A stretch of 64,000 nucleotides of DNA from Nitrospinaceae bacterium (GTDB lineage Bacteria > Nitrospinota > Nitrospinia > Nitrospinales > Nitrospinaceae): positions 1 through 64,000 of the forward strand of contig JAHELC010000002.1 of assembly GCA_024644405.1 (NCBI GenBank), in the 5' to 3' direction. The notes below the pieces were generated by a model. The model worked only from the letters and a program-made list of their open reading frames with translations, was not told the DNA's origin and made no database searches. Both the position numbers and the translations under genes were made by a program. This document shows positions 14,014-57,407 of this stretch, one piece after another. Within the stretch, counting starts at the first letter, position 1. Every line of letters begins with the position of its first letter.

Positions 14014-14088
14014 CAGGCCAGGAGGGAGTCGAACCCCCAACATCCAGATTTGGAGTCTGGCGCTCTAACCAATTAGAGCTACTGGCCT
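14014..14088 (-). tRNA. tRNA-Trp (CCA anticodon)
   Basis: The minus strand folds into a complete cloverleaf: acceptor AGGCCAG/CTGGCCT, D arm CTCTAATTGGTTAGAG, anticodon stem CCAGA/TCTGG with loop CTCCAAA (anticodon CCA), T arm with GTTCGAC. Discriminator G. The 3' CCA is not encoded, unlike in the other three tRNAs of this cluster. Confidence 0.97.
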
Positions 14089-14191
14089 ATTGAACTGTTC
14101 ATAACAAGGCCAACTCAGGTTGGAAACTCCCGGCCAAAAAACGGCTCGCCTGATCCGTGGGCATCCAGCCAGATCGACAACCGTTGATCCA

Positions 14192-14341
14192 TTACTTGGT
14201 TTCTTTGTGAGGAGTGTGCTTCCGGCAGAAACGGCAATACTTTTTAAACTCCAGTCGGTCCGTAGTTTTTTTCTTGTTCTTCGTTGTGGAATAATTCCTA
14301 CGCTTGCACTCGCCGCATGCCAAATGAATAATGTCCCTCAT
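14192..14341 (-). CDS. rpmG: 50S ribosomal protein L33
   Basis: Small 23S rRNA-associated protein, 49 residues, starting [18 protein letters not shown]. Two CxxC pairs (CGEC at 9-12 and CRFC near 37-40) make this the zinc-binding C+ form. It sits between tRNA-Thr and tRNA-Trp upstream of secE, a frequent bacterial position. ATG at 14341. Confidence 0.96.
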
Positions 14342-14455
14342 CGCCCTACATCCGTTCCCGGCCTGCTCCAAACAGACCTGACATTACTTCCGTTAATCCA
14401 CCTAAGGCTATCCTGCTGCCTTGACTCAATTAATCCTTTAATCACTCTATCGATA

Positions 14456-14530
14456 TGGAGCCCACGATCGGGATTGAACCGATGACCTCTTCCTTACCAA
14501 GGAAGTGCTCCACCACTGAGCTACGTGGGC
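14456..14530 (-). tRNA. tRNA-Thr (GGT anticodon)
   Basis: Complete cloverleaf on the minus strand: acceptor GCCCACG/CGTGGGC, anticodon stem CTTCC/GGAAG with loop TTGGTAA (anticodon GGT), T loop TTCAATC. The 3' CCA is encoded at 14456-14458. Confidence 0.97.
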
Positions 14531-14582
14531 ATTTTAATGTCAACGACTCACCAATACCCCGAAACCAAAAGGGTTGTGCCTT

Positions 14583-14659
14583 TGGAGCGGGAAAAGGGAC
14601 TCGAACCCTCGACCCTCAGCTTGGAAGGCTGACGCTCTAGCCAACTGAGCTATTCCCGC
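14583..14659 (-). tRNA. tRNA-Gly (TCC anticodon)
   Basis: Complete cloverleaf on the minus strand: acceptor GCGGGAA/TTCCCGC, anticodon stem TCAGC/GCTGA with loop CTTCCAA (anticodon TCC), T arm GAGGGTTCGAGTCCCTT. CCA encoded at 14583-14585. Confidence 0.97.
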
Positions 14660-14679
14660 GTATTTTATTTATTAATTAA

Positions 14680-14764
14680 TGGTGGGGAGAGGAGGATTCG
14701 AACCTCCGAAGGCTGAGCCGACAGATTTACAGTCTGTTCCCTTTGGCCACTCGGGAATCTCCCC
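14680..14764 (-). tRNA. tRNA-Tyr (GTA anticodon)
   Basis: An 85-nt class II tRNA on the minus strand with long variable arm: acceptor GGGGAGA/TCTCCCC, anticodon stem CAGA/TCTG with loop CTGTAAA (anticodon GTA), variable-arm stem, T arm GGAGGTTCGAATCC. CCA encoded at 14680-14682. Confidence 0.97.
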
Positions 14765-49519: not shown

Positions 49520-49711
49520 TCAATTGACGCCGTAGTTTTTGGGATAGTAGGCAGGCTGTTTCAGATAATATTGTTGTTCGAGATATTCAAAATAAAACTG
49601 GATAACGCCGTTCTGGAACGTTGGAAACGAGGTCCACCCGCCGTGGCCGAGGGCGAATCCCAGAAACATGAAATAGCGGACTATGCGATTCGGAATCATA
49701 ATCGCTACCAT
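49520..49711 (-). CDS. Possible small membrane protein
   Basis: A 63-residue reading frame with one hydrophobic segment (RIVRYFMFLGFALGHGG) and a Tyr/Gln-rich C-terminal half (YFEYLEQQYYLKQPAYYPKNY). No Shine-Dalgarno site is clear. It lies in the 431-bp gap 49375-49805, where I see nothing else. Confidence 0.35.
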   Translation of the reverse strand: MVAIMIPNRIVRYFMFLGFALGHGGWTSFPTFQNGVIQFYFEYLEQQYYLKQPAYYPKNYGVN

Positions 49712-49805
49712 AACATACTTGGAGGGACGCCGAATTCATTTTATCAAGGGGCGGCTCCCGCAACAATCCGAACCCCGTCCCAATGCCTTGCCGGGTTCAA
49801 CCCGC

Positions 49806-51323
49806 TCAGAACGGTGCCGAATCGACATAACGCTTCACGGTCCTGCGGTCCAACTTGGTCCTGCGGGCCACTTCCTCATACGTTCCGAACTGCTTGAAAA
49901 GGAGGGCACAATAACGGCTTAACAGCTCCCGGGCTTCGAGTGTGCCCGACTGGATTTTTTGAATCAATTCCTCTTCCCAGTTGAGCCCGAGGGTCATGGA
50001 ATCGCCTTCATAATGCCGGGTCAGCAGGATGCGCCGTACGGCCTGCTCCAATTCCCTCACATTGCCAGGCCAGGTGTATTCTGGAGGAAGATCCCGCTTC
50101 AGAATTTCAAGTATCATTCCGGTCAAATGTGGACTTTCTTTACCCGTCATCCGCAGCACCAACGAATTGACCAGCAATTCCAGTTCCGAGGGCAACTCCG
50201 CGATGCGTTGACGCAAGGTGGGAACGGTAATGACGTCCGAACACAAACGGTAGAAGAAATCATCCCGGAAACGACCCTGTTTGCGCAGGTTGTGGATGGA
50301 ACGATTGGTGGCAACGATCACCCGGCCGTCAAACCGTTTTTTCTCGTGACTGCCCACCGGAGTGAAAACGCGCTCCTGCAACACCTGGAGTAATTTGATC
50401 TGGATGGGAACGGACAGGTCACCGATTTCGTCCAGAAACAGAGAACCATGCGCGTCACACAATTCGATAATACCTTCATGGTCCTCCATCGCCCCGGTAA
50501 AAGATCCCTTTTTATGTCCAAACAACTCGGATTCGATTAAACTCTCGGAAAACTGGGAAAGGTTGATCGGCAGAAACAGGTCGTTGAAATTGTTTGAAAA
50601 CTGACCCCTTTTCGGATCAAAGGGAATAAAACCCGAGCGGCCAATCGCACGCGCCGCCGAACCCTTACCGGTTCCGGTTTCTCCCAGGATCAGGGTGGAA
50701 AAATCCTCCATGCGGTTCATCAGGTATTGATTGTAATTGCGGACATCAAAGGTAAAAACACTTTGCCACAATTTATGCCGTAGTCTTTGCATGCATGAGC
50801 TGTAACCCAGCAGGGATTGATCAATAAAAAAGTAAGCCCGCCGCAATTGAAAAAATAATGCAAAATTACTGAGACTTGCCTCCTCCGTGAACCCCCGCTT
50901 CTGGAGCTGGTTGACTACTGCTTTTCCGAAAGGAACCTCCACGGATTTCCCTCCGTTCGCCAGCTGATCCTGCACCAGATTATCTATATCAGGCACAAAT
51001 TGCAGATAGGTTTGGAGCAGGAAAACATTTTCCATCAGGGTCCGGTCCTCGCCTCGAACCGACTGGATCCGAAAAAACCCTTTATTGTCCAGCCGTGCCA
51101 AATACTCGTTGAGCGGCGATCGCAGGGTCCATAGAAAATGCTCCTTGCGAAATTGCTCTCGCGAAAAACCGGAAACCAGATTCTGGAGGAGACCCAGATT
51201 CTCCTCAAAGGGATTCAAAAACATGGCCTGGGTGATTTTATTCAGGAAATCACGATCCCCTGCAGTCAACCGGTGGGAACTGCTGGATTTGGAAACTTTC
51301 GCCTTGGCTTTTTCCATAATCAT
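49806..51323 (-). CDS. Sigma-54-dependent transcriptional activator (AAA+, no receiver)
   Basis: A 505-residue enhancer-binding protein. The N-terminal 190 residues are a sensory part I do not recognise. The AAA+ domain has Walker A GETGTGKG (214-221), the sigma-54 contact loop GSFTGA (273-278, a variant of GAFTGA), Walker B SLFLDEIGD (294-302), the arginine-finger region RDDFFYRL and WPGNVRELEQA. A C-terminal HTH (YEEVARRTKLDRRTVKRYVDS) binds DNA. ATG 51323 has no clear Shine-Dalgarno site. Divergent from the dehydratase/activase operon, which has a -24/-12 promoter. Confidence 0.93.
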   Translation of the reverse strand: MIMEKAKAKVSKSSSSHRLTAGDRDFLNKITQAMFLNPFEENLGLLQNLVSGFSREQFRKEHFLWTLRSPLNEYLARLDNKGFFRIQSVRGEDRTLMENVFLLQTYLQFVPDIDNLVQDQLANGGKSVEVPFGKAVVNQLQKRGFTEEASLSNFALFFQLRRAYFFIDQSLLGYSSCMQRLRHKLWQSVFTFDVRNYNQYLMNRMEDFSTLILGETGTGKGSAARAIGRSGFIPFDPKRGQFSNNFNDLFLPINLSQFSESLIESELFGHKKGSFTGAMEDHEGIIELCDAHGSLFLDEIGDLSVPIQIKLLQVLQERVFTPVGSHEKKRFDGRVIVATNRSIHNLRKQGRFRDDFFYRLCSDVITVPTLRQRIAELPSELELLVNSLVLRMTGKESPHLTGMILEILKRDLPPEYTWPGNVRELEQAVRRILLTRHYEGDSMTLGLNWEEELIQKIQSGTLEARELLSRYCALLFKQFGTYEEVARRTKLDRRTVKRYVDSAPF

Positions 51324-51338
51324 AAATTGTACTATTTA

Positions 51339-51355
51339 TATACATTAAATGTATA
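51339..51355. promoter_or_regulatory. Palindrome, candidate enhancer site of the sigma-54 activator
   Basis: TATACATT and AATGTATA, perfect 8-bp arms around one A. The centre lies about 120 bp upstream of the start site predicted from the -24/-12 promoter, a usual distance for enhancer sites, and 16 bp before the activator gene, which would allow autoregulation. Confidence 0.55.
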
Positions 51356-51441
51356 AAATTATTAATATCTGATGACGAATAATTTCCCCGAACCTGGCTA
51401 AATACAATCAATATATACCTTAATTAGATTCATCCATTTTA

Positions 51442-51457
51442 GGCATCAATTTTGCTT
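51442..51457 (+). promoter_or_regulatory. Sigma-54 (-24/-12) promoter
   Basis: AGGCAT-CAATT-TTGCT: GG at 51443-51444 and GC at 51455-51456 are separated by exactly 10 bp, with a full TTGCT -12 element. It points toward the dehydratase/activase operon, predicting a start near 51469 and a leader of about 310 bases. That leader contains a TTGCCGG/CCGGCAA stem-loop (51731-51759) directly before the ribosome-binding site. Confidence 0.7.
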
Positions 51458-51780
51458 TTATAGTTATAGGAAAGTCATACAACCAAGAAACGATGCCGGA
51501 ATCGAGGGGTCGTCCAGGCATCTCAGGCTAGAACTATAGTGTTCAATTCCACTCGAACCACATATAAAACTTTGCAGTTTATTTAATTTTCAAGGTATCG
51601 CATTCCCTGGAACCTTTAAGGATGGAGACAGCCATTATTCGATTTTAATAAATAATATTTTGAATATTTAATAATTATCGATGAGCCATAAATGTACTGC
51701 AGGCTTGAAATTAAACAATACGGAAATCTATTGCCGGCTTTCAGGGTTCGAACCGGCAAGTTTAAGGGAGGGATAAATTC

Positions 51781-53490
51781 ATGGAAGCGACCACAATAAC
51801 TAGTACTAACGGTATTGGAGATCCAGTTACTTGTTTGCCGGAGACATCAATGGTCGAAGAGATTTCTCCATCGTCCAACGGTAAAAATGATCCCAGCCGG
51901 GTAACTCTTCTATTCAACGGCGCGACCTGGAAACATGACTATTTAATTGAAGGGATGTTCCAGAGTCTGGGCTATCAGTGCCAGGCTCTTCCGACGCCTA
52001 CCGTTGATTCGTTTCAATTGGGAAAGGAATTCGGAAACAACGGCCAGTGCAATCCTACCTATTTCACCGTAGGCAACCTGGTCAAATATTTAAAGGAACT
52101 TGAATCCCAGGGCATGTCCCGCAAGGAAATCACCGACCAGTACGCGTTCTTTACTTTTGGAGCCAACGGTCCCTGCCGTTTCGGCATGTATGTGGAAGAG
52201 TACCGGCTGGCTTTACGCAATGCGGGTTTTCCCGATTTTCGCATTGAAATCGTGGACCGCGATGCAGGCCTCAACCAGGAGGAAAGCAACGCTCTGGTCG
52301 ATTGCAACATGGATGTGGTGTTCGGTCTGCTCAACTCGTTCAATATAGGAGACATCATCACCAGCATCGGCTATCAGATCCGCCCTTTTGAAATCAATCC
52401 CGGAGAAACCGATCAAGTCGTCAAGGAGTGCATGGATCACCTGTACCAATACATGAAAAACCGTCCGCCTTATGAGATGAAACATTTCCCGGGATTTTTG
52501 AAAAACAGCTTTCCCGGAATGTACGAAGGGATTCGTTACCTGCGCAAATTCCTGCATCAAATCGGGGACAAGGGATTCAAGCGGGCACTGGAACATTGCC
52601 GCGACCGGTTCAACTCGATTCCCGTCGACCGCACCCGCGCCAAGCCGATCGTTAAAGTGACCGGAGAGTTTTGGGCGCAAACCACGGAAGGTGACGGCAA
52701 TTTTAATATGTTTGCCTTTCTCGAGAGAGAAGGGTCCCAATGCATCGTGGAACCGGTAGCCACGTGGGTGCCTTATCTGCTGCTGCTGGCGCGTCAGAAT
52801 GCGGAAGCGGCCCGCACCGCCCATGGATTGCCCAACGAAACGTGGGTTCAGGGACTGAAACGAAAAACCCGTCAGCAGTGGGATTATTTGATGGCCGCCA
52901 TCCAATTGAAGCTGGGTCTCAAAATTTTCCTGCGGGAATACGATCGTCTGGCGACGGTCTTCGGCGATTTACCAACGCATCTGCTGGATCAGGACAAACT
53001 GGCCGACCTGGGCGGAAAGTTTTACAACACTCACGCCGACGGCGGCGAAGGGCATCTCGAAATCGCCAAAGCCATATACTACAGCACCCAGGACAAAGCA
53101 CATATGATCCTGTCCGTCAAACCTTTCGGATGCATGCCCAGCACCCAGTCCGACGGCGCGATGACTCAGGTGATGTCCAAGTACAAGGATATGATCTTTC
53201 TGCCCATTGAAACTTCCGGCGAAGGAGAAGTCAATGCCCACAGCCGTGTGCAGATGGCACTGGGCGAAGCCAAACATAAAACCAAGGCCGAGTTTGCCCA
53301 AACTCTGGAGAAATCCGGTTACACCCTGGAACAGATCCGCACTTATGTCGCGGACCATCCGGAATTGAAAACCCCCATGTATCCGGTACCCCATCACAAG
53401 GGTTTGGTGGGAACTGCCGCCAATTTTGTCCGGCACGTGTCCGAACGCATGCAACAGGAAGGCGTCCGGAATCAGGAGGTGGCGGCATGA
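51781..53490 (+). CDS. HgdB/DUF2229-type dehydratase-like Fe-S protein
   Basis: A 569-residue protein of the 2-hydroxyacyl-CoA dehydratase / benzoyl-CoA-reductase-type superfamily, in the form usually fused to the activase. Candidate cluster ligands: Cys90 (NNGQCNP), Cys132 (ANGPCRFGMY) and Cys451 (KPFGCMPSTQSDG). Family members accept single electrons from an ATP-driven activase and perform radical reductions or dehydrations; some hold a double-cubane [8Fe-9S] cluster. Substrate unknown. AAGGGAGGG precedes the ATG; the stop overlaps the next gene by 4 bp. Confidence 0.82.
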   Translation: MEATTITSTNGIGDPVTCLPETSMVEEISPSSNGKNDPSRVTLLFNGATWKHDYLIEGMFQSLGYQCQALPTPTVDSFQLGKEFGNNGQCNPTYFTVGNLVKYLKELESQGMSRKEITDQYAFFTFGANGPCRFGMYVEEYRLALRNAGFPDFRIEIVDRDAGLNQEESNALVDCNMDVVFGLLNSFNIGDIITSIGYQIRPFEINPGETDQVVKECMDHLYQYMKNRPPYEMKHFPGFLKNSFPGMYEGIRYLRKFLHQIGDKGFKRALEHCRDRFNSIPVDRTRAKPIVKVTGEFWAQTTEGDGNFNMFAFLEREGSQCIVEPVATWVPYLLLLARQNAEAARTAHGLPNETWVQGLKRKTRQQWDYLMAAIQLKLGLKIFLREYDRLATVFGDLPTHLLDQDKLADLGGKFYNTHADGGEGHLEIAKAIYYSTQDKAHMILSVKPFGCMPSTQSDGAMTQVMSKYKDMIFLPIETSGEGEVNAHSRVQMALGEAKHKTKAEFAQTLEKSGYTLEQIRTYVADHPELKTPMYPVPHHKGLVGTAANFVRHVSERMQQEGVRNQEVAA

Positions 53491-56400
53491 ACATGTCCAA
53501 TGATGAAAAACAGTTGATGTTGGGAATCGATGTCGGGTCCACCACGGTCAAATCCGTCCTGGTGGATGCCGGCAATGACGAGGTGCTCTGGCAGGATTAC
53601 CAGCGGCACGATACCCGGCAGGCCGAAAAGGTTCTCGAATTTCTCCAATTGCTGGAGAAGGATTACCAGATCAACTCCAGCAACTGCCGCCTGTTTTTGA
53701 CGGGCAGCGGGGCCAGTCCGCTCACCGAATTCATCGGCGGAAAATTCGTTCAGGAAGTGAACGCCGTTTCCATGGCCATCGAGAAGTTCCACCCGGAAGC
53801 CGGATCCGTGGTGGAGTTGGGGGGGCAGGATGCCAAAATCCTGATCTACAAGGAAGTGCTGGAAGACGGCCGCAAGAAAAAGATTTTTTCAATGAATGAC
53901 AAGTGCGCCGGGGGAACCGGAGCGGTGATTGATAAAATCAGCGCCAAGCTCAACATCCCCGCCGAAGAACTGAGCCAGCAACGGTATACCGGGTTTAAAA
54001 TTCATCCGGTCGCTGGCAAGTGCGGCGTGTTTGCCGAAACGGATATCAACGGGCTGCAGAAAGTCGGCGTTCCCCAGGATGAATTGATGGCTTCCCTGTT
54101 CGAGGCGATTGTGGAACAGAATCTGTCGGTTCTGACACGCGGCAACACCCTCCGTCCGCACGTCCTGTTGCTGGGAGGTCCCAACACGTTCATTCAGGGA
54201 ATGCACGAGTGCTGGCGCACTGCGATCACCCGCTTGTGGAAGGAGCGCAAGTTCCCGATGGACGAGTATGACGTGCCTCCTGAAGAGCTGGTCCGGGTTC
54301 CCGACAATGGACAGTATTTCGCCGCCCGCGGCGCTGTCGAATTCGGTAAAACGGAAGATCTGGATGTCGGGATCTATCAGGGACTGGAACCCCTGGTGCA
54401 TTACCTCGAAGTGGGACGTATCGAAAAAATGAAAGAAACCAGCAACGCCCAGAAAGGTCTGGTCGACAACGAGGAAGAGCTGGCGACGTTCAGCGAGGCC
54501 TACCGGGTCCCATCCTTTGATATGCCCGTATTCCCGCAGGGCCAGCAGGTCCGGGGATATATCGGGATTGACGGCGGATCCACCTCCACCAAAGCGGTCT
54601 TGATGGATACCGACTCCAAGATCATCGCGCTGGCCTACCAGCTTTCCAAAGGCAACCCCATCAGCGACACCATCGAAGTGCTGGAAAAACTTCGCCAGCA
54701 GGTGGAAGGCGATGGCGCACGCCTGGAAGTCCTGGGACTGGGCACCACCGGTTACGCCAAAGATATTCTCGCCGACGTGCTGAAAGCGGACGTGGCCATC
54801 GTGGAAACCGTTGCTCATTCTAAATCCGCTCTTCATTATTATGACGATGTCGATGTCATCTGTGATGTCGGCGGACAGGATATTAAAATAATGATGCTGA
54901 AGAACGGCGCCGTGAAGGATTTCAAGATCAACACCCAGTGTTCGGCCGGCAACGGATATTTCCTGCATTCCACGGCCGAGACGTTCAATATCGATCTCAA
55001 GGAATATGCCGACAAGGCGTTTTCCGCCAAAGTCATGCCGTCCTTTGGGTACGGGTGTGCGGTGTTCATGCAGACGGATATCGTAAACTTCCAGAGACAG
55101 GGCTGGCGGGCGGAAGAAATTCTGGCGGGTCTGGCCGACGTGCTGCCTAAAAATATCTGGCTGTATGTCGCCCAAATTCCCAATATTCCCAAACTGGGAA
55201 CCAAATTCATCCTGCAGGGTGGAACCCAGCGCAACCTGGCGGCCGTTAAATCGCAGGTGGATTTTATCCGCTCGCGGTTTGCAGGCCTGGAAGAGGAACC
55301 CGAAGTGACGGTGCACAAATTCTGCGGGGAAAGCGGAGCCATCGGCGCCGCCCTGGAAGCCACCCGGCTCGGGCAAAATGGGAAGCATACCTCTTTCATC
55401 GGTTTCGAAGCGGTCAAGGACATCACCTTTGTGACCCACCGCAACGAAAACACCCGCTGTCATTTCTGCAAAAATCTGTGCCTGCGCAGTTTTATCGATG
55501 TCACCATTCCGGGCAGCAAAGAGAAGGCGGAACCCTCCGGGTATGAGAGCAAGATTCCCCTGGCGCCGGATGCCCAGCGGTTGATCGTCAGCAACTCCTG
55601 CGAACGCGGGCTGGTGGAAGACGAAGAACAGATGCTGGTGATCCAGGCGGGGGTAACTCAGATCAAGTCGCAGAATCCCAACCTGGTGGAGCTGGCCTCG
55701 AAAGCGGCGTTCTGGCCCTACAAACCTCCTTTGGTTGCCGACTCGCCGATACGGTTTCCCGTGCTTCCCAGGCAAAAGAAACGCCAGGCACTGATGGATC
55801 ATAGGAAGAACATCAAGATCGGCATTCCACGGGTGCTCAACATGTATTCCTGCAATCCGTTTTTCTCGGGTTATTTTGAGTCCCTGGGCGTGAATCCGAA
55901 AAACCTGGTTTATAGCGATTACACCAGCGAGCAATTATACAAGGAAGGCAACAAACGCGGTTCCGTGGATCCCTGTTTCCCCAGCAAAGTCTCATTGGCC
56001 CATATACACAACCTGTTGTTCGTCAAACACCGGAAGTCGCCACTGGACTTCATCTTTTTTCCGATGATCGCCACCCTGCCTCACAGCGAGTTGGAAGGGG
56101 CCATCGGTCATTGCGCCTGCCCGACGGTAACCACCACGCCGGAATCGGCAAAATCGGGATTCACCAACGAGACGGATTTGTTCACAGATAATGGCGTGCG
56201 TTTTCTCAACACGTATGTGTCGTTGGATGACCCGGGCCGGTTGAAGGACCAGATGTACAAGGAGTTCGAAAGTATTTTCGGGTTGTCTCGCAGTGAAAAC
56301 AATCGCGCTGTCGAAGCAGGGTTCAAAGCCCTGGATGTGTTCGTAGAAAGGAAACTCAGGGATCCGGCCCGGCAGTTGCTGAAACAACTCGAAAAGGAAC

Positions 56401-56924
56401 AAAAGTTGGGTATTGTGCTTTTGGGCCGTCCTTATCATAACGACCCGGGGCTCAATCACGGCATCCTGGAAGAATTCCAGAAACGGGGTTACCCCATCTT
56501 CACCCAATACTCACTGCCAACCGAACCGGAAATCCTGGATAAACTTTTCGCGAAGGATATCGCTGAAGGCACAATGGCGCACCCGACGGATATTTCCGAC
56601 GTCTGGCAGGTTTCCTACAGTGAGAACTCCAGTCATAAGATCTGGATTGCGAAATACGTGGCCCGGCATCCCAACCTGGTGGGACTGGACCTGTCCAGTT
56701 TCAAGTGCGGTCATGACGCGCCCATTTATTCGGTGGTGGAAGAAATCCTGGAAAACTCGGGCACGCCTTATTTCTCGTTCAAGGATATCGATGAAAACAA
56801 ACCTACCGGTTCGATCAAGCTCCGGGTAGAAACCATCGATTATTTCCTGCGCCGCTACCGGGAGGATCAATTTGAATTGAGCCCCAAGAAGGAACCCCGG
56901 GAAACCGCTCTGGTAACCGAATGA
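53487..56924 (+). CDS. Tandem BadF-type ATPase activase fused to DUF2229 domain
   Basis: A 1145-residue ATP-dependent electron-transfer protein. Two BadF/BcrD ATPase modules: residues about 10-290 (GIDVGSTT phosphate loop, Cys140 in NDKCAGGTG, Cys179 in AGKCGVF) and about 357-630 (GIDGGSTS, Cys485 in NTQCSAG, Cys524 in GYGCAVF). In single-module activases two Cys per monomer hold one [4Fe-4S] cluster between subunits; here four Cys in one chain could do this internally. Then a CHFCKNLC motif (658-665) and a DUF2229/HgdB-like part with Cys789, 830, 876, 878 and 1074. ATG overlaps the previous stop by 4 bp. It should power the partner protein with electrons. Confidence 0.88.
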   Translation: MNMSNDEKQLMLGIDVGSTTVKSVLVDAGNDEVLWQDYQRHDTRQAEKVLEFLQLLEKDYQINSSNCRLFLTGSGASPLTEFIGGKFVQEVNAVSMAIEKFHPEAGSVVELGGQDAKILIYKEVLEDGRKKKIFSMNDKCAGGTGAVIDKISAKLNIPAEELSQQRYTGFKIHPVAGKCGVFAETDINGLQKVGVPQDELMASLFEAIVEQNLSVLTRGNTLRPHVLLLGGPNTFIQGMHECWRTAITRLWKERKFPMDEYDVPPEELVRVPDNGQYFAARGAVEFGKTEDLDVGIYQGLEPLVHYLEVGRIEKMKETSNAQKGLVDNEEELATFSEAYRVPSFDMPVFPQGQQVRGYIGIDGGSTSTKAVLMDTDSKIIALAYQLSKGNPISDTIEVLEKLRQQVEGDGARLEVLGLGTTGYAKDILADVLKADVAIVETVAHSKSALHYYDDVDVICDVGGQDIKIMMLKNGAVKDFKINTQCSAGNGYFLHSTAETFNIDLKEYADKAFSAKVMPSFGYGCAVFMQTDIVNFQRQGWRAEEILAGLADVLPKNIWLYVAQIPNIPKLGTKFILQGGTQRNLAAVKSQVDFIRSRFAGLEEEPEVTVHKFCGESGAIGAALEATRLGQNGKHTSFIGFEAVKDITFVTHRNENTRCHFCKNLCLRSFIDVTIPGSKEKAEPSGYESKIPLAPDAQRLIVSNSCERGLVEDEEQMLVIQAGVTQIKSQNPNLVELASKAAFWPYKPPLVADSPIRFPVLPRQKKRQALMDHRKNIKIGIPRVLNMYSCNPFFSGYFESLGVNPKNLVYSDYTSEQLYKEGNKRGSVDPCFPSKVSLAHIHNLLFVKHRKSPLDFIFFPMIATLPHSELEGAIGHCACPTVTTTPESAKSGFTNETDLFTDNGVRFLNTYVSLDDPGRLKDQMYKEFESIFGLSRSENNRAVEAGFKALDVFVERKLRDPARQLLKQLEKEQKLGIVLLGRPYHNDPGLNHGILEEFQKRGYPIFTQYSLPTEPEILDKLFAKDIAEGTMAHPTDISDVWQVSYSENSSHKIWIAKYVARHPNLVGLDLSSFKCGHDAPIYSVVEEILENSGTPYFSFKDIDENKPTGSIKLRVETIDYFLRRYREDQFELSPKKEPRETALVTE

Positions 56925-57023
56925 CCGGAGCAGACAGCCTGTTTTTCAGGATGCGAAAAACCCACGATGACCCACATCCGGGGTAGTCAAATTTTCCACC
57001 CATTTTCTCCCTTGGGCTGAAAA

Positions 57024-57059: not shown

Positions 57060-57176
57060 AATCCTGTAAACCTTGACATTTAATGGCCTTCAGCGATCCG
57101 TTACCGGACCTTCCCGGCGTGGCACGAGTATTGCTATATTTTTCAGTACTTTATAGACCAACTGGGGGATCAAGGC

Positions 57177-57407
57177 ATGGCTGATTTAAGGCTGAAACGC
57201 GAAACAGCTGATTATGGCGACATGAGCGAGCATCTGGACCAACAGTCCAAACTGTATGAACGGAATCTGCACATCAAAAATTCCCTGCGCATGCAGGAGC
57301 TGTTGAACGTGGAGTCGTTCCGCAAATGGAAAAAATTGCGCTTCGGGGGGCAGAATCCACCGGCGGATTTGGAACCGTCGGATCAGTTCAACAATGAACG
57401 TCCCTGA
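57177..57407 (+). CDS. Small hypothetical protein
   Basis: A 76-residue charged, helix-rich protein (ADYGDMSEHLDQQSKLYERNLHIKNSLRMQELLNVE). GGGGATCAAGG precedes the ATG. No family recognised; no membrane span or Cys. It stands alone after the activase operon and converges with the next gene. Confidence 0.5.
   Translation: MADLRLKRETADYGDMSEHLDQQSKLYERNLHIKNSLRMQELLNVESFRKWKKLRFGGQNPPADLEPSDQFNNERP

Follow-up and report, generated by a model that had tools for sequence, protein, structure and literature searches.

A putative sigma-54-controlled, split Ger/PlsA-like glycerol-ester reductase encoded by an acquired cassette in a Nitrospinaceae bacterium

A cassette of three genes, comprising a sigma-54 enhancer-binding activator and a divergently transcribed two-gene operon (p2 and p3), occupies a site in the genome of a Nitrospinaceae bacterium that is empty in three congeners. 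Its operon is predicted, with good support from sequence for the activase half and from fold for both lobes, to encode an ATP-driven reductase of the BCR/HAD type. The interpretation of the cassette as a sigma-54-controlled, split relative of the glycerol-ester reductases Ger and PlsA is offered tentatively, at nearly even chances. The kind of enzyme is known, while the split form, the predicted sigma-54 control and the acquisition are new. The cassette bears on the means and timing of ether-lipid formation in bacteria, where the conditions regulating PlsA/Ger homologues are, according to PMC13274423, still to be found.

Results and Discussion

Gene content and acquisition of the cassette

The window analysed is a stretch of 64 kb, and the features of the cassette within it are listed in Table 1. 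All three open reading frames are present, and the genes, promoter and palindrome described in the initial annotation of this DNA are real and lie where it had placed them or at most 1-2 bases away.

Table 1. Coordinates of the predicted features of the cassette in the window
Feature	Position	Strand	Evidence or remark
Acquired cassette	49700..56943	.	Whole interval missing in three congeners (empty site)
Sigma-54 enhancer-binding activator, 505 aa	49806..51323	-	PF00158 E=8e-45, AAA_lid_14
Putative N-terminal sensory domain, residues 1-200	50724..51323	-	No Pfam match
Sigma-70-like activator promoter, TATACA-18-TACAAT	51326..51355	-	Overlaps the palindrome; same spacing in G016
17-bp palindrome TATACATTAAATGTATA, probable activator operator/upstream activating site	51339..51355	.	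Centre ~ -120 from predicted +1
-24/-12 sigma-54 promoter TAGGCATCAATTTTGCT	51440..51456	+	13.5 bits, P ~0.001
Predicted untranslated leader, 314 nt	51467..51780	+	No Rfam match, z=-0.5
p2, BCR/HAD-fold lobe, 569 aa	51781..53490	+	AlphaFold pLDDT 80, Foldseek
ATGA overlap, translational coupling of p2/p3	53487..53490	+	p3 start on p2 stop
p3, two fused activase domains and BCR/HAD-fold lobe, 1145 aa	53487..56924	+	2x PF01869, TIGR00241, DUF2229
p3 activase domain 1, ~ residues 5-298	53499..54380	+	PF01869/TIGR00241; cluster cysteines C140, C179
p3 activase domain 2, residues 359-625	54561..55361	+	PF01869; cluster cysteines C485, C524
p3 C-terminal BCR/HAD-fold lobe, residues 626-1145	55362..56924	+	AlphaFold pLDDT 79; Foldseek top 4 DCCP, HadBC

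Comparison of the window with the congeners G001, G002 and G003 by blastn revealed syntenic flanks of 74-86% identity and an empty site, at which window positions 49699-49703 join 56943, 56969 or 57120. p2 was found in none of the 60 other genomes of the same order; more distant members of the phylum carry relatives only as fused proteins of ~1420 aa (~30% identity), and the nearest copies (56% identity for p2, 63% for p3) occur outside the phylum, in G163 and G400. The sole copy returned by a single scan of the genome contigs was a distant one from Aquificota. The empty site in three congeners and the absence of p2 from the 60 genomes thus identify the three genes as one acquired unit and, since the 285-kb contig extends past both junctions and the G+C content of the cassette is that of its flanks, the activator and the operon were most likely acquired jointly by a single insertion. 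Mobile-element ends were rejected, as the junctions lack direct or inverted repeats of at least 9 bp and no integrase lies within the cassette; a plasmid origin was rejected because a close plasmid relative was not found. The O2-using enzymes previously noted in the genome are borne out by a match to COX1 of the haem-copper oxidases (E=8e-67), which indicates O2 respiration by the host. Elsewhere in the window, four tRNA genes are clustered at 14014-14764 (-).

The p2 and p3 proteins

The two-gene operon with coupled translation proposed earlier is evident in the overlap of the p2 and p3 reading frames, with an AGGAGG ribosome site just 5' of the p3 start. Both activase domains of p3 are BcrAD/BadFG-type ASKHA domains with an invariant pair of cluster cysteines, as in the activases of the BCR I/HAD family; among activases of solved structure, HadI, HgdC and MbdQ come closest. 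The C-terminal lobe carries seven invariant cysteines (C658, C661, C665, C705, C830, C878 and C1074).

No match to p2 was obtained by sequence in Pfam or the PDB, even with a profile of 18 sequences, and a direct sequence link was therefore given up; the fold search succeeded. The top eight Foldseek matches of the p2 model are all DCCP, BzdNO, HadBC and MbdONPQ. For p2 and the p3 lobe, the matches with probability near 1 all belong to one family, BCR/HAD, with E-values near 1e-3 and low global TM-scores (0.3-0.37). A profile-profile alignment between p2 and the p3 lobe is weak (E=0.19, with C90 aligned with C830) and is not counted as proof. Three cysteines of p2 (C90, C132 and C451) are invariant in 18 homologues. 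The catalytic-cluster cysteines number three in BzdO (Cys95/128/380) and likewise in HadB (PMC11971306), and p2 shows a single three-cysteine pattern of this kind, which would by analogy hold a [4Fe-4S] cluster. The DCCP/BzdN pattern of six cysteines per monomer for an [8Fe-9S] cluster (PMC11971306) is not matched, p2 having three invariant cysteines and the p3 lobe seven of ambiguous assignment. The Foldseek matches and the invariant cysteines together give p2 and the p3 lobe the double alpha/beta fold and the three or more cluster cysteines of a BCR I/HAD catalytic lobe. The ATP-driven dehydratase/reductase superfamily recognised in the initial annotation is thus upheld as the BCR/HAD type, by sequence for the activase half and by fold for both lobes.

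The activator and the intergenic region

The activator contains an AAA+ domain (~ residues 172-440) and a C-terminal HTH, with the motifs GETGTGKG, LDEIGD and GSFTGA, and its start is probably the second ATG (51317). The GSFTGA motif and the HTH are conserved in six homologues, and the closest solved AAA+ domains are those of NtrC/FleQ. GSFTGA in place of GAFTGA is a listed variant compatible with sigma-54 activation (PMC4641369, PMC6615313). With its AAA+ domain, Walker motifs, GAFTGA-type loop and HTH, and with rpoN encoded in the genome (G000:C28:5605-6084, E=2e-56), the protein has the features of a sigma-54 enhancer-binding protein, in support of the sigma-54 activator with a divergent promoter proposed before. 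Its identification as the RNA repair activator RtcR was rejected, the score being 184.9 bits against an NCBIfam equivalog cut-off of 650 and confined to the AAA+ region. The N-terminal domain, which the first reading had not recognised, gave no Pfam match in a profile search with residues 1-200; homologues of this domain occur in 6 of the 385 genomes at 29-38% identity, full-length relatives of the activator being 44-60% identical. The activator family thus appears rare and would define a new sensor family of enhancer-binding proteins.

The GG-N10-GC promoter placed earlier at 51442-51457 is present, with the predicted dinucleotides GG at 51442-51443 and GC at 51454-51455. A count with the plain consensus (two mismatches to TGGCAC-N5-TTGCW) gave 26 sites in the window against 31 expected, which is not above chance, and a weighted matrix with shuffles was therefore used instead, the weights being our approximation of the published consensus. 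With this matrix the promoter ranks second among the sigma-54 sites of the window, and when the 457-bp intergenic region was shuffled 1000 times with its dinucleotides preserved, a single shuffle scored as high, so that GG-N10-GC with its flanking consensus matches better than expected from regional chance. No sigma-70-like site facing p2 was found across the intergenic region. A riboswitch or structured leader was rejected on the Rfam and structure results of Table 1. The top sigma-54 site of the window lies just beyond the cassette, at 57119-57135 (+) (GTGGCACGAGTATTGCT, 17.3 bits), and precedes an ORF of 76 aa (57177-57407); both are kept in three congeners, the ORF at 75-87% identity.

The palindrome, formerly placed near -122, has the core ATACATNNNATGTAT (ATACAT-N3-ATGTAT), which occurs once in its own genome of 2.98 Mb. 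The core also occurs once in G016, of the same order, at the promoter of an activator of 60% identity, and once in G051, on a different contig from the activator of that genome; no copies were found in the congeners G001 and G002 or in G013. As in the present genome, the copy in G016 overlaps a TATACA-18-TACAAT promoter of the activator there. Since the palindrome overlaps the -35 box of the activator's own promoter, the activator probably represses itself.

Activator homologues in G051 and G013 diverge from -24/-12 sites of 15.4 and 14.5 bits, respectively (P<0.001 each). The targets at these loci are an MFS-acyltransferase-AMP-ligase (acyltransferase/acyl-ACP-synthetase-like) fusion, ceramidase-like membrane proteins with 40% mutual identity and a lipase-like gene, which supports, at the level of sequence, a divergent sigma-54 layout as well as a probable membrane-lipid theme. 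At L084 9307-9323 (-) and L085 10614-10630 (+), which represent two further genera of this order, strong -24/-12 sites divergent from activator homologues precede membrane-lipid genes, with ceramidase-like proteins among the products.

Many genomes have the p2/p3 pair but lack this activator, which in turn is found elsewhere apart from the pair and is not its conserved neighbour; their pairing here therefore rests on the divergent arrangement of the genes, the one operator, the promoter and the joint insertion at one site. These elements of the complete sigma-54 circuit claimed initially stand, while the activator as the operon's regulator is not established by them, the two being separate elsewhere; a sigma-54 circuit formed by the activator and the operon is nevertheless considered probable.

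Relationship to ether-lipid enzymes

p3 and p2, taken in that order, are collinear with fused proteins of 1410-1445 aa that have the PlsA/Ger architecture of two PF01869 domains and both HAD lobes, with identities of ~24-30% for p3 and 20-25% for p2. The 14 cysteines of p2 and p3 are conserved without exception across 12 split proteins and 11 fused ones. The architecture with two PF01869 domains has been reported for the glycerol ester reductase Ger, whose activity in E. coli grown anaerobically yields alkyl ethers (PMC13274423, PMC11150832). Ger is similar to PlsA, and the plsA-plsR operon of C. perfringens comprises two genes (PMC13274423, PMC11150832, PMC8788747). Thermotoga maritima, the host of Ger, has a DUF2229 protein.

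The search for nearby substrate genes in relatives, suggested in the initial annotation, was productive in G163 and G400, which belong to one genus. Here a tetraether-synthase homologue (E=1e-63 to 7tol, a tetraether-lipid synthase; PMC9433317), a radical SAM gene, p2 and p3 follow one another on one strand. This neighbour is confined to the one genus, the other split loci having TetR genes, NFACT or nothing telling. The enzyme architecture, the neighbours of the nearest relatives and the targets of the regulator's relatives thus provide three independent leads to an ether-lipid role, none decisive. For the substrate, earlier given as unknown, the foremost candidate is now a glycerol ester of the membrane; by analogy, the odds that p2/p3 act on such a membrane lipid are put at even or marginally better.

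Several other arrangements of these genes were observed. Outside the phylum, at L059 5968-14850 and at L058, p2 and p3 lie in one array with a tetraether-lipid-synthase homologue and a second radical SAM gene, all on the same strand. At L063 4208-11043 a radical SAM gene, with a weak tetraether synthase match (E=1.6e-4), lies between split p2 and p3, and at L075 10263-17263 the split pair adjoins a different sigma-54 activator, of the response-regulator type, and a -24/-12 site of 11.3 bits lies 163 bases 5' of p3. In L069, L070, L074 and L028 (small genomes, Aquificota MAG) a p2 homologue of 410-481 aa is present without an adjoining activase gene.

In the proposed mechanism, the two activase domains in the single p3 chain would form an internal pseudo-dimer in which C140, C179, C485 and C524 bind one [4Fe-4S] cluster, and p2 would supply the second lobe with its three-cysteine catalytic [4Fe-4S] cluster. 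The activase half would hydrolyse ATP to drive low-potential electrons into the lobes, where an unactivated carbonyl, most likely a membrane phospholipid acyl ester, would undergo ketyl-type reduction to an alkyl or alkenyl ether, as with Ger and PlsA. The operon would remain silent until the divergently encoded activator senses a signal, probably membrane- or redox-related, and binds the palindrome at -120 to open the sigma-54 promoter.

A broader and more speculative possibility is that an O2-respiring lineage gained an oxygen-sensitive ether-lipid reductase and its dedicated sigma-54 activator, of a regulator family facing membrane-lipid genes in relatives, in one 7.2-kb step, as an enhancer-controlled on/off switch for membrane ether lipids with a new class of sensory domain. 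A reductase with its own single-operator activator would offer a simple genetic handle on ether-lipid regulation, and with the split clade the range of possible ether-lipid enzymes would no longer be limited to the fused proteins, a point relevant to the question of which organisms produce ether-lipid biomarkers.

Alternative interpretations

The same ATP-driven reductase and circuit could serve a CoA thioester, by dehydrating a 2-hydroxyacyl-CoA or reducing an aromatic or enoyl-CoA, or some other soluble acyl compound, in keeping with HadI, HgdC and MbdQ as nearest solved activases and with HadBC and BzdNO among the nearest folds. Such a substrate is, however, unlikely: the same folds include DCCP, an enzyme without CoA specificity; a fusion of two activase domains is typical of Ger/PlsA; and neither the cassette nor the neighbourhood of its nearest relatives contains a gene for a CoA ligase, a thioesterase or a CoA pathway. 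A role of p2/p3 in electron delivery or repair, such as reductive activation of a metalloenzyme or DCCP-like reduction of a small molecule, instead of a lipid, is quite unlikely: p2 has three invariant cysteines rather than six, unlike a double-cubane subunit, even though DCCP heads the fold matches, such roles are known for activase homologues, and some split loci have radical SAM and B12-type genes close by.

Transcription of the operon from a sigma-70 promoter, with the activator governing something else or itself alone, would accord with the overlap of palindrome and activator promoter, the separation of pair and activator in other genomes and the long leader of 314 nt. It is nonetheless decidedly improbable, as the intergenic region offers a 13.5-bit -24/-12 site and no sigma-70-like site toward p2, the operator is found nowhere else in the genome, activator and operon lie in one insertion, and the divergent sigma-54 layout recurs at homologue loci. 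The genome is a draft of 40 contigs with a contamination estimate of 3.5%, and the cassette is missing in every sampled congener; an assembly artefact or contaminating DNA is nevertheless extremely improbable, given junctions well placed inside one contig, flanks syntenic to three congeners and matching G+C content.

Comparison with known systems

The candidate split glycerol-ester reductase shares with Ger (Thermotoga maritima, Desulfatibacillum alkenivorans) and PlsA/PlsR (Clostridium perfringens) the order of two BcrAD/BadFG domains, a DUF2229-type lobe and a second HAD lobe, and its 14 cysteines are common to fused proteins of ~1420 aa that are classed with these by architecture. A two-gene form is known also in PlsA/PlsR, whereas p2/p3 differ from these systems in the split between the two HAD lobes, the order p2-p3, the predicted sigma-54 control and an identity of ~24-30% to the fused proteins. 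The BCR I/HAD family (HgdAB/HgdC, HadBC/HadI, BzdNOPQ, DCCP/DCCP-R) is alike in activase fold, cluster cysteines and lobe folds (DCCP, BzdNO, HadBC), but p3 fuses the activase pair with one lobe, p2 lacks a sequence match in Pfam or the PDB, and CoA-pathway neighbours are absent. The activator resembles NtrC-class enhancer-binding proteins, among which RtcR is the best NCBIfam model, in its AAA+ domain, GAFTGA-type loop (GSFTGA), C-terminal HTH and divergent target, and departs from them in its RtcR score (185 against the cut-off of 650) and in an N-terminal domain that no Pfam domain matches.
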